DNA of 10,401 bases from Rhodocyclaceae bacterium (lineage in GTDB: Bacteria; Pseudomonadota; Gammaproteobacteria; Burkholderiales; Rhodocyclaceae), in the NCBI GenBank assembly GCA_030689585.1, contig JAUYFZ010000232.1, positions 1 to 10,401 of the forward strand, in the 5' to 3' direction. The notes under the pieces are model-generated. The model was not told where the DNA came from and did no database searches. It was given only the letters and a program-made list of their open reading frames with translations. Each line of letters opens with the position of its first letter. Position 1 is the first letter of the stretch. This document shows positions 3,492 to 6,170 of this stretch, piece after piece. The position numbers and the translations under genes are program-made.

Positions 3492-4372
3492 GAAGTGACT
3501 CGGTCGTAGTATCTCGCCCGATAAAGTAGGCGATGACGCGAGGCGCCGTTTGAAAAACCTGCGCGATCATGCAAAACGTTATTGCTAACCAATCCCATGC
3601 CAGGTTCCAGCCGTCCACGCAATATCCAGGGGGAGGGTTGATTCAATAGATGAGCCAAGGCCCTCACCGCCGCACGGGTAACGGCATCGTCACGCCAGAC
3701 GATGTTGATCGCTCTGGCCGTATAGCGCATGTGTAAAAACCCTGCCTCATCCACGGAAAAAACTGGACCCGGTTGTTCCGGTCGCGCAATGCCCCCTTCT
3801 TCTCCTTGCTCCATCCTCGCCGGAATGGTCATGGCCTCCGGACGGGATAAGGCGCGAATATATTCAGGGTTTTTATCGCGCAGCAGAATGTAGGCAATTT
3901 CGTGATCTAAAAGCTGGTTTTCTCCACCGGATTCGGCACTTTCTGCGCAATGAAGCAGTAGCCCCCGCACGGTGCGCTCCGGTGCGTTGTAATAACCGTC
4001 CGTATGCCATTTGATCGGACGGTTGGTGTAGGGAATGAAATCAGGACGATTCCCGGTTTCTTGCACCGATAACGGTGAAATGCCATCGTCATCGGTCAAC
4101 CAGTGCGTGTCGAGTTTTTGCAATCCCAACTGCTGGCCGAGTTTTCGCGGAATGTCCTTATCAGGATCGCGCCCCGTTTTCCCTGCATGAATGGCCATGT
4201 TGCAGCGGGCACACAGGTCAATCATTTGCTGTCGTTCCGACACATTCAAGCATCGAGGATCCTCCACTTCGACCACAATGTCTTCCAGTCGACGCGGAGC
4301 CGTATCGAGTTTTTGGGCGCGCCAGTCACGGTACGTCGCTGTGTCGTGCAGGTCGAAAGGAGACGTCATCAT
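3488..4372 (-). CDS. TauD/TfdA-family Fe(II)/2-oxoglutarate dioxygenase
   Basis: This 294-residue protein belongs to the family that couples 2-oxoglutarate decarboxylation to substrate hydroxylation, for example taurine to sulfite plus aminoacetaldehyde. The iron-binding HxD is at H123 and D125 (WHTDGYY) and the distal histidine is H268 (NNVLHDR). An arginine 11 residues later (R279, in GASRHRLLYR) sits where family members bind the 2-oxoglutarate carboxylate. All facial-triad residues are present, so the enzyme should be active. Length and spacing match TauD-like enzymes of about 280-300 residues. The substrate cannot be read from the sequence: the N-terminal part (RDWRAQKLDTAPRRLEDIVVEV) is unlike taurine dioxygenase as I remember it. 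It overlaps both neighbours by 4 bases (ATGA). With a DsrC-family gene in the same run, a sulfur-containing substrate is plausible but unproven. Confidence 0.88.
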   Translation of the reverse strand: MMTSPFDLHDTATYRDWRAQKLDTAPRRLEDIVVEVEDPRCLNVSERQQMIDLCARCNMAIHAGKTGRDPDKDIPRKLGQQLGLQKLDTHWLTDDDGISPLSVQETGNRPDFIPYTNRPIKWHTDGYYNAPERTVRGLLLHCAESAESGGENQLLDHEIAYILLRDKNPEYIRALSRPEAMTIPARMEQGEEGGIARPEQPGPVFSVDEAGFLHMRYTARAINIVWRDDAVTRAAVRALAHLLNQPSPWILRGRLEPGMGLVSNNVLHDRAGFSNGASRHRLLYRARYYDRVTS

Positions 4373-4914
4373 TCAAGGATGCCCGTCAATGTTTTCTCTA
4401 ATGCCAGAATCGCCGCCGGTGCTTCAATATCCATCACTTGATCGATCACCCAATGATGATCTTTTTCAAGCAACAGAACTTCCCTCAAACAAGCCCCTAA
4501 ATACCGATGAAAGCCAAATGCCTCATAGTCAAATTCGGCATATTCCGCGCTACGTCGGTTGAACAAATGAATGAAATCGCGCTGATCCGCGCTGGGGTCC
4601 ACTTGATGAAGTTGTTTGTTTTCCTCAACGATTTCTGACAATCGTTTCACCAAGGCCACGGTGAATGCCGTGCGAACTTCCACGTCGAGTTGTTTGTAAA
4701 CAATTCGGTCGGCTGCCACTGCCATAAAAACCAGAAACTCGCCCAAAAAATCGAAATAGGGCGGGCCAATATCAATGTCGAACTTCGCACGCCGCATGTT
4801 GTTGATCGATTCAATCGCCAATTTCCAAGCCAAAGTCGCCACGACGGAAGCCAGTACCACGGGGGATCTCTGGCCTTCCGCATGGAAACGGGTACGAAGT
4901 CGAATGCCCGCCAT
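4369..4914 (-). CDS. Uncharacterised helical protein in the dsrC-like/TauD operon
   Basis: I do not recognise a characterised family. The 181-residue product appears soluble and largely alpha-helical, with no signal peptide. Features include VVLASVVATLAWKLAIESINNM (about 19-40, the most hydrophobic helix), FDIDIGPPYFDFLGEF (45-60), the charged stretch VKRLSEIVEENKQL, FNRRSAEYAEFDYEAFGFHRYLG (118-140) and KDHHWVIDQVMDIEAP (151-166). Clustered Glu, Asp and His (E59, D69, H136, H153, H154, D158) could form a metal or cofactor site, but this is speculation. A TTG at 4917 abuts the preceding stop; I prefer the ATG at 4914. The stop overlaps the dioxygenase ATG, so the two are translationally coupled and may act in the same process. 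I believe similar proteins occur beside DsrC-like genes elsewhere, but this needs a search. Confidence 0.8.
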   Translation of the reverse strand: MAGIRLRTRFHAEGQRSPVVLASVVATLAWKLAIESINNMRRAKFDIDIGPPYFDFLGEFLVFMAVAADRIVYKQLDVEVRTAFTVALVKRLSEIVEENKQLHQVDPSADQRDFIHLFNRRSAEYAEFDYEAFGFHRYLGACLREVLLLEKDHHWVIDQVMDIEAPAAILALEKTLTGILE

Positions 4915-4917
4915 CAA

Positions 4918-5279: not shown

Positions 5280-5891
5280 TTATCTACCCCATCCACCCAC
5301 GGGCGCAACCGATTTGTGCTCTACGAAAAGTCCGCATCCCAACAATCGATCACCCCCCAACCCTTCGCGTTGCACGCGCAACGACCCGGTCTCATCCAAC
5401 CCCTGCAACATCAGGCTGAAACCCACACGAAGTCCTTCCTGCCGTGCCTTGCCGCAAAGCAGAGGCACGAAAATATCCATCTGAGACAGCCTATGACGAC
5501 AAGCCTCGAGAAACGCTGACTCTTCGGATTCTCCCATCGTCACAAAGGCAGAATATAGCATTCTGACCCCCGCTAATTCACGCGGCTTGGCCGTTCCAAT
5601 CGTCACGCTGTCCCCCAATTCAAGAGACACCCCCGTCAGCCCATTCGCCAATTCCTGTCTTTCACGAGGCAGACGCAAAATCAAACGAGAATGCCGTGAC
5701 AAATAAAGTTCGTCAGAAGCCTCTCCCACACGATGCAAGGAATGAACACCGGCCAATGGCTCATCCATTAACCAAGGCAGATGCTCGCACAACTGTTCTT
5801 TCAATCTCTCGGCATAACCTTTCTTCACCGCTTGACCGGAAAGAACGAAGGAAATATCCAGTGAATCATTAGCGTGAAATACATACCCCAT
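5280..5891 (-). CDS. Cas6/Cmx6-like RAMP protein (orphan)
   Basis: From the ATG at 5891 this is a 203-residue protein that I assign to the Cas6 RAMP superfamily, closest in memory to the MYXAN-type Cas6/Cmx6 group. Cas6 proteins cut CRISPR precursor RNA at repeat hairpins. The C-terminus holds GLGGDRLLGCG at 177-187, an exact match to the Cas6 glycine-rich loop pattern G-x-G-x5-G-x-G, within LRVQREGLGGDRLLGCGLF. Upstream are LDISFVLSG (11-19, beta-1), the helix KKGYAERLKEQLCEHLPWL (23-41), GVHSLHR (48-54) and RLILRLPRER. Candidate catalytic histidines are H37, H50 and H53. A HGY found after beta-1 in my recollection of the family reads KGY here, so activity is uncertain. No other cas gene or CRISPR array is in the window. 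An open frame continues upstream to 6065, but only through tandem repeats. The ATG itself lies in the terminal repeat, so the native N-terminus may differ. Confidence 0.72.
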   Translation of the reverse strand: MGYVFHANDSLDISFVLSGQAVKKGYAERLKEQLCEHLPWLMDEPLAGVHSLHRVGEASDELYLSRHSRLILRLPRERQELANGLTGVSLELGDSVTIGTAKPRELAGVRMLYSAFVTMGESEESAFLEACRHRLSQMDIFVPLLCGKARQEGLRVGFSLMLQGLDETGSLRVQREGLGGDRLLGCGLFVEHKSVAPVGGWGR

Positions 5892-5910
5892 CCCCTCCCC
5901 AACCCTCCCC
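5886..5910 (-). promoter_or_regulatory. G-quadruplex-prone tract over the Cas6-like start codon
   Basis: On the sense strand of the Cas6-like gene there are five G-runs of 4, 3, 4, 4 and 4 bases, separated by loops of 1, 2, 1 and 2 bases (positions 5910 down to 5886). The ATG start falls between the fourth and fifth runs. This satisfies the usual four-run, short-loop quadruplex pattern, so a folded mRNA would hide the start codon and the G-rich Shine-Dalgarno-like sequence. Related G-rich tracts occur on the plus strand at 6094-6120 and 10035-10059. Confidence 0.5.
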
Positions 5911-6120
5911 GTGAAGGGGAGGGAGTTAAGCCCCTCCCCCTTCAAGGGGAGAGAGTTAGTCTGCTCCCCCTTGTAGGGGAGGGAGTTAGTCTCCTCCCCC
6001 TTGAAGTGGAGGGAGTTAGTCTCCTCCCCCTTGAAGGGGAGGGAGTTAGTCTGCTCCCCCTTCAAGGGGAGGGAGTTAAGCCCCTCCCCCTACAAGGGGG
6101 AGGCTGGGAGGGGGATGGGG
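5889..6120. repeat. Tandem array of 30-bp GC-rich palindromic repeats with inverted terminal copies
   Basis: Six contiguous 30-bp units begin with CTCCCC at 5934, 5964, 5994, 6024, 6054 and 6084, plus a partial unit from about 5903. Each contains a palindrome CTCCCC-(5-7 nt)-GGGGAG joined by a linker of the type GTTAGTCTCC. The ends are different: the left end (5889-5920) carries the reverse complement of the single-copy element at about 10025-10056 with one mismatch. The right end (6084-6120) carries a similar sequence in direct orientation, so the two caps point outwards. Because 30 is divisible by three, open frames run through both strands (peptides such as LPLEGEGVSL on plus and KGEETNSLPF on minus); these are by-products. 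There are no unique spacers, so it is not a CRISPR array. Confidence 0.92.
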
Positions 6121-6137
6121 TCGGTAGATGCCCTAAG

Positions 6138-6170
6138 TTTCATCATGCGGGGTGGGCTTCGTGACCATGC
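6138..6170. repeat. Remnant of the MITE-flanking module
   Basis: TTTCAT at 6138-6143 is followed after 5 nt by a 22-base sequence (6149-6170, GGGGTGGGCTTCGTGACC plus ATGC) that recurs exactly at 9001-9022. In that second place it follows the right end (TTTCAT) of the second MITE copy by 6 nt. Here it lies just left of the first MITE copy instead, so it looks like the leftover right flank of another, lost or rearranged, element copy. Similarity continues weakly to about 6180 (GTTA-N2-GTGA). Confidence 0.65.

Follow-up and report, generated by a model that had tools for sequence, protein, structure and literature searches.

A Cas6-fold protein clade linked to dsr sulfur-oxidation genes, outside CRISPR-Cas, in Beta- and Gammaproteobacteria

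The window analysed here—a stretch of 10,401 nt from a Rhodocyclaceae bacterium—encodes on its reverse strand (5280..5891) a 203-aa Cas6-fold protein that belongs to a separate, non-CRISPR clade of family PF09559, linked to dsr genes in sulfur-oxidizing Beta- and Gammaproteobacteria. Because the gene adjoins dsr genes, without CRISPR genes, in most of the relatives sampled, our data suggest that sulfur metabolism recruited a component of CRISPR, and support the earlier reading of the gene as a Cas6 homologue outside CRISPR. We are much surer of this non-CRISPR, sulfur-oxidation context than of the mode of action, for which we lean towards an accessory and probably regulatory role in the reverse-Dsr pathway, together with a DsrC-like partner.

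The similarity of the window protein to Cas6, assigned from its open reading frame, profiles and fold, is far above chance. In profile searches it scored 145.6 bits against PF09559 (cut-off 26.7) and 113.7 bits against TIGR02807 (cut-off 98.85), six PADLOC Cas6 profiles matched as well, and in structure comparison its fold matched Cas6 chains, with their double RRM-like RAMP fold. Profiles and fold thus agree on the Cas6/Cmx6-like identity that the first-pass annotation had proposed, and the glycine-rich loop on which that proposal drew, GLGGDRLLGCG, is indeed present at the C terminus; within this loop, G177, G179, R182, G185, C186, and G187 do not vary across alignment A1 (43 rows). The annotation had also described the loss of one candidate catalytic histidine. 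A His is indeed missing—at the two canonical His positions the protein carries Tyr26, in place of the helix-1 His, and Met42—but the motif given for it, KGY, was placed one residue off: where the canonical D-H-G-Y has Asp and His, the window protein has Gly25 and Tyr26. The whole protein has a net charge of −3. Its first codons (5880-5891) fall inside the edge of a dispersed repeat, and the exact start of the gene is therefore uncertain.

Downstream, after a 29-nt gap that matches the annotated one, lies a DsrC-like gene (PF04358, TIGR03342; 4918..5250, reverse strand, 110 aa) whose product lacks both C-terminal cysteines, followed on the same strand by a member of a conserved family that we call F3 (4369..4917, 182 aa; predicted all-alpha, with no Pfam match and no PDB fold match) and a TauD-type Fe(II)/2-oxoglutarate dioxygenase family protein (PF02668; 3488..4372, 294 aa). 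Just upstream of the Cas6-fold gene is an array of 30-nt tandem repeats (5907..6116, no strand assigned). Searches of the window revealed neither a cas gene nor a CRISPR array, consistent with the orphan status first ascribed to the gene. In this assembly, which is 79% complete, dsrA, dsrB, and further dsr genes are located on contig C117 and not on the window contig. The first gene of C117 encodes a DUF6967 protein and is directed at the contig start, and the initial 73 bases of this contig match window positions 6098-6170 at 96%, with full identity over the leading 51 (6098-6148). This overlap fits the order dsrA, DUF6967, Cas6-fold gene, DsrC-like gene seen in relatives, with the repeat array in between. 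However, copies of the flank element are present at 12 genomic sites (seven exact), and the opposite end of C117 carries the element as well; the GC-rich 30-nt unit makes up tandem arrays in many parts of the genome (124 matches). With an element so dispersed, contig joins across it are unsafe and the adjacency of the two contigs is unproven; despite the 51 identical bases, we do not claim it. In G023, a genome from the same genus that consists of a single contig, dsrA lies ~1.1 kb from the Cas6-fold gene (locus L144). As a side observation, the own-genome dsrA open frame contained one TAA in the family search, whereas dsrA as called by the gene caller is open.

We then compared the gene neighbourhood across relatives. 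A scan of named genomes with alignment A1 returned 353 relatives, of which the best 80 were used—by title mostly Betaproteobacteria, with some unspecified Proteobacteria and one gammaproteobacterium; with 40 further loci from a family sample of 199 genomes and the window itself, this amounted to 121 loci. Five of these (L033, L045, L054, L063, and L072), in which the gene caller missed the gene, were left out; removal of duplicates from the other 116 left 97, the window's genes being set by hand. Loci from the named scan and the family sample are termed beta-type and those from a class sample gamma-type, a division that reflects how they were fetched rather than taxonomy; one beta-type row (L089) groups among gamma-type rows in the tree described below.

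The arrangement proved highly recurrent. dsrAB was encoded on the opposite strand, at most four genes upstream, in 95 of the 97 loci (the exceptions being the window itself and L096), and a DsrC-like gene followed on the same strand, at most three genes downstream, in 93. F3 was found near the Cas6-fold gene in 89/97 beta-type loci and TauD in 84/97, and a double TusA lay no more than three genes downstream in 59/97. Directly upstream, 79 of the 97 loci carried DUF6967 (PF22295), with a median overlap of 4 nt between the two genes over these 79 loci, which points to a single, putative transcript. The opposite strand reads dsrA dsrB dsrE dsrF dsrH dsrC dsrM, names being given by homology and order. 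The conserved run, divergent from dsrAB, thus has DUF6967 or TauD on its upstream side, while a DsrC-like gene poor in Cys codons, F3, and TauD (in many loci also TusA) lie downstream. This changes two details of the initial view. The gene, initially placed at the head of a run, does not head an isolated one: in relatives it usually comes after DUF6967, facing the dsr operon. And while a RAMP homologue in a metabolic or regulatory operon is supported, the 'sulfur-relay-type' run is better described as the context of a dsrAB-dsrEFHC sulfur-oxidation operon.

Gamma-type loci, which are part of the 118 class-sample carriers (four without a called gene were left out of the neighbour counts), had a similar layout. 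The DsrC-like gene was the next one downstream in 37/46, so that the predicted recurrence of Cys-poor DsrC homologues held in both sets; TauD lay at most three genes upstream in 30/46 and dsrAB at most four genes upstream in 28/46, with contigs often ending nearby. Five genomes of 1.0-1.1 Mb (G237, G485, G340, G453, and G549; loci L164-L168), none of which had a Cas1 match, showed the same arrangement with a dsr operon; their size would be that of reduced thiotrophic symbionts. Between TauD and the Cas6-fold gene, gamma-type loci (as at L159:8668-8862 and L164:8648-8839) encode a 63-64 aa protein without Pfam match, and some gamma-type loci also have a ~235 aa protein.

The tie to dsr extends to gene content. 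In the family sample, PF09559 was present in 42/199 genomes and dsrA in 47 (44 over the cut-off plus three, G071, G001, and G131, cut by contig ends). When the two lists were compared by hand, all 42 carriers had dsrA and none of the 152 genomes without dsrA carried PF09559, the gene being missing from five of the 47 dsrA genomes (G004, G154, G122, G076, and G125). The class sample of 369 genomes, scored with a dsrA limit of E ≤ 1e-40, contained 118 genomes with PF09559 and 118 with dsrA (112 over the cut-off): both genes in 111, PF09559 only in seven, dsrA only in seven, and neither in 244 (Fisher p 5e-76, shared ancestry ignored), with carriers in 87 of 272 genera. In 81 of the 111 double carriers the two genes were at most 7 kb apart, in 28 they were on different contigs, and in two they were far apart (518 kb in G523, 42 kb in G307), separations that disfavour an obligatory linkage to dsrA. 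Loci L169, L170, and L171 belong to a lineage with genomes of 1.4-1.6 Mb, in which dsrA is 518 kb or 42 kb away, or on another contig. Of the seven loci with PF09559 but no dsrA match within this limit, six have TauD, a DsrC-like gene, or both next to the Cas6-fold gene, and in one of them (G516) a dsrAB fragment is present in addition. At the remaining locus (G497), a match to the DsrC family lies on the opposite strand. In a phylum sample of 239 genomes, dsrA was found in 48 and PF09559 only in the own genome and G767, that is, in none of the 46 dsrA genomes from other classes. In these samples, the link between PF09559 and dsr is therefore a feature of Beta- and Gammaproteobacteria and not a general part of Dsr.

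To the extent that profiles name it, the window protein is a CRISPR protein: TIGR02807 and PADLOC both call it CRISPR-associated, and the own genome has a contig with Cas1 and Cas2, as would suit a displaced CRISPR-Cas member that processes crRNA in trans. We nevertheless regard this explanation as very improbable and largely refuted. A tblastn search used 13 Cas queries, of which 12 came from I-MYXAN loci of cyanobacteria and one was an I-C Cas1, a set that could miss other subtypes; none of 147 dsr-type loci (2.28 Mb) matched, as opposed to seven of eight plasmid loci and the contig with the own Cas1, which served as controls. In the same seven plasmid loci, PF09559 genes sit inside cas operons, beside cas3, cmx8/cas8, cas7, and cas5, unlike the dsr-linked clade, for which no cas neighbours were found. 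Cas1 matched in 51/118 class-sample carriers versus 85/251 non-carriers (p 0.08), arguing for a weak tie between Cas1 and PF09559 at most, and left 67 carriers without a match. The only Cas1 match of the own assembly, on a contig shared with Cas2 and cut by the contig end, scored best with type I-C (360.9 bits, below the model cut-off of 385); type I-C, according to the part of PMC3652601 available to us, has no cas6 and uses Cas5d instead. The alternative raised with the original note, a normal CRISPR-cas locus from which the gene had been displaced, finds no counterpart in this 79% complete assembly, and with the separate clade and residues described next we rejected it. Viral contigs scanned with alignment A4 contained no phage-borne copies of the gene. 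Short array-like repeats were flagged in two dsr-type loci (L109 near 10958 and L206 near 15288). The eighth plasmid control (L219, Gloeobacter morelensis), in which cas6 is the only annotated cas gene, has its PF09559 gene near PAPS-reductase-family and methyltransferase genes, possibly another non-CRISPR use.

Type I-MYXAN Cas6/Cmx6 (TIGR02807, PF09559), encoded in CRISPR-Cas operons of cyanobacteria and others, is the closest known counterpart, sharing Pfam family, fold, and Gly-rich loop with the dsr-linked clade (profile-profile probability 100) and, in current annotation, its name. Sequence comparison nonetheless sets the two apart. A tree was computed from 161 rows, namely 41/97 beta-type, 46 gamma-type, 15/42 near-hit, 50/120 canonical, eight plasmid, and one CAST; in it, a branch with SH-aLRT 100 divided the 59 canonical, plasmid, and CAST rows from the dsr-linked rows (quick method, unrooted). 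Profiles built from half of each group sorted 92/92 and 64/64 held-out rows correctly, although identical or near-identical rows may span the halves, and when relatives of a gamma-type protein from a small genome were put to the profile test, all 120 of the best 120 (of 180) grouped with the dsr set. The groups also differ in their residues (window numbering). His42, found in 119/120 canonical and 5/8 plasmid rows, occurs in 0/46 gamma-type and 1/97 beta-type rows; conversely, Trp40 (97/97 beta-type, 41/46 gamma-type) and His192 (97/97 and 40/46) are outside the eight commonest residues at these positions in canonical rows. CRISPR-linked PF09559 proteins are basic and mostly carry H42, whereas the dsr-linked clade is near-neutral and shares W40 and H192-K193 instead: median core net charge, a coarse proxy, was 0 for beta-type (n=97) and −1 for gamma-type proteins (n=46) versus +8 for canonical (n=118) and +6.5 for plasmid ones (n=8). 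Cas6 of type I-B CAST (PDB 8fcj/8fcu), by entry title a component of a Cascade complex, keeps H42 and has a core charge of +7, again unlike the dsr-linked clade. The dsr-linked protein is evidently maintained, given a median dN/dS of 0.18 (range 0.06-0.39; 127 pairs of 72-99% identity, which share sequences), indicative of purifying selection.

Could the protein still be a sequence-specific RNA-binding protein or endoribonuclease, now directed at a dsr transcript or a small RNA, for example in operon mRNA processing or autoregulation? The Cas6 fold and the Gly-rich loop are intact, and the helix-1 His26, present in 109/120 canonical rows, is kept in 45/46 gamma-type and 49/97 beta-type rows, being invariant in the 29 rows of alignment A4, which are gamma-type members; 42/97 beta-type rows, including the window protein, have Tyr at this position. 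A simple loss of the catalytic His across the clade is therefore not a viable description. Moreover, as far as the consulted portion of PMC3652601 goes, Cas6e and Cas6f use the helix-1 His, Cas6 of P. furiosus uses a different one, and SsoCas6 cleaves without an active-site His; Cas6 histidines are also discussed in the accessible parts of PMC3945376 and PMC3150331. Against this stand the core charge, the column-42 His remaining in only 1/143 rows, and a window protein that has neither His. RNA searches, all of them coarse, likewise yielded no convincing element: Rfam gave no match in six sources, and alifold, run on 65 windows from intergenic segments, revealed no convincing conserved hairpin, its few low z-scores falling on weak, short hairpins that, in the part of the loci inspected, lay in the GC-rich 3′ coding ends of cas6 without a stem common to all. 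We hold such a sequence-specific RNA-binding or nuclease function to be rather unlikely, though the least so of the alternatives considered. The narrower suggestion made at first sight, that the protein binds RNA without cutting it, goes beyond the data, as the clade has no basic net charge and most gamma-type members retain the helix-1 His.

The partner proteins offer further hints. Within the last 20 residues, 64 of 101 beta-type DsrC-like neighbours have no Cys and 37 have one, as opposed to two in 71/73 DsrC proteins of the dsr operon; 35/37 gamma-type neighbours have none. The window's DsrC-like tail ends ...AVKIAGLPKPYGKAGY, without the two relay cysteines of the DsrC family, and so fits the group of DsrC-like proteins lacking C-terminal cysteines, called RspA. 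TauD proteins display the motifs HxDGYY (83/83 beta-type, 29/29 gamma-type) and NNxLHxR (76/83 and 22/29), and 59/60 TusA neighbours have two CPxP motifs. F3, also found in 20 gamma-type loci, was modelled as an all-alpha protein (pLDDT 89.6; predicted structure), with no PDB fold match at an E under 0.8. Since Tus proteins act on tRNA, the presence of TusA, a TusE/DsrC relative, and a motif-bearing oxygenase as neighbours could be read as an RNA thiolation module, in which TusA and the TusE-like DsrC relative would give sulfur, the TauD-type oxygenase would oxidize, and the Cas6-fold protein would hold the RNA. We consider this improbable: none of the 101 beta-type DsrC-like neighbours reaches two Cys within its last 20 residues, TusA is not within three genes in 38/97 loci, the Cas6-fold protein is close to neutral, and the dsrAB link points to energy metabolism.

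In the explanation that we favour, the clade would have been domesticated from CRISPR Cas6—a direction that we infer, as the tree is unrooted—and its protein would form a complex with the Cys-poor DsrC-like protein. This complex may tune dsr expression or DsrAB/DsrC turnover, probably by contacting other proteins or a single specific RNA, and not via CRISPR repeat processing. A more detailed version, in which a single, deep domestication in Beta- and Gammaproteobacteria made the protein an almost constant element of lithotrophic sulfur oxidation in these groups, went along with a large loss of general RNA binding and produced a control or assembly switch of reverse Dsr with a relay-dead DsrC homologue, is offered more tentatively, at somewhat less than even confidence. 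A regulatory role would suit DsrC-type proteins, since in A. vinosum, according to the sections of PMC5944118 at hand, the DNA upstream of dsr is bound by DsrC. The same sections list extra DsrC-like proteins in Thiodictyon syntrophicum, one of them numbered close to the dsr cluster; extra cysteine-less dsrC homologues are reported for the Solemya velum symbiont (PMC4287430, in part), and DsrC/TusE genes rank among the most expressed of a lucinid symbiont (PMC13137333, in part). Going by gene numbers, our guess is that one of the latter corresponds to the DsrC-like neighbour described here; the available portions of these three papers do not mention a Cas6-fold gene.

If true, this would be a clear case of a CRISPR part domesticated into energy metabolism, and would add an unstudied component to a pathway that matters for the sulfur cycle and for symbioses. 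In the literature on Cas6, the family names, and dsr that was partly accessible to us (most subscription journals lay outside its scope), we found no description of a Cas6 homologue in dsr clusters, and the accessible parts of the papers cited here mention Cas6, known as the enzyme that cuts CRISPR RNA, solely in that role. As databases label the dsr-linked genes as CRISPR proteins, CRISPR surveys can be misled by them. Elsewhere in the window, and unrelated to the Cas6-fold finding, positions 268-1883 encode a HipA-like protein with an HTH partner (PF07804, PF13657, HTH_31).
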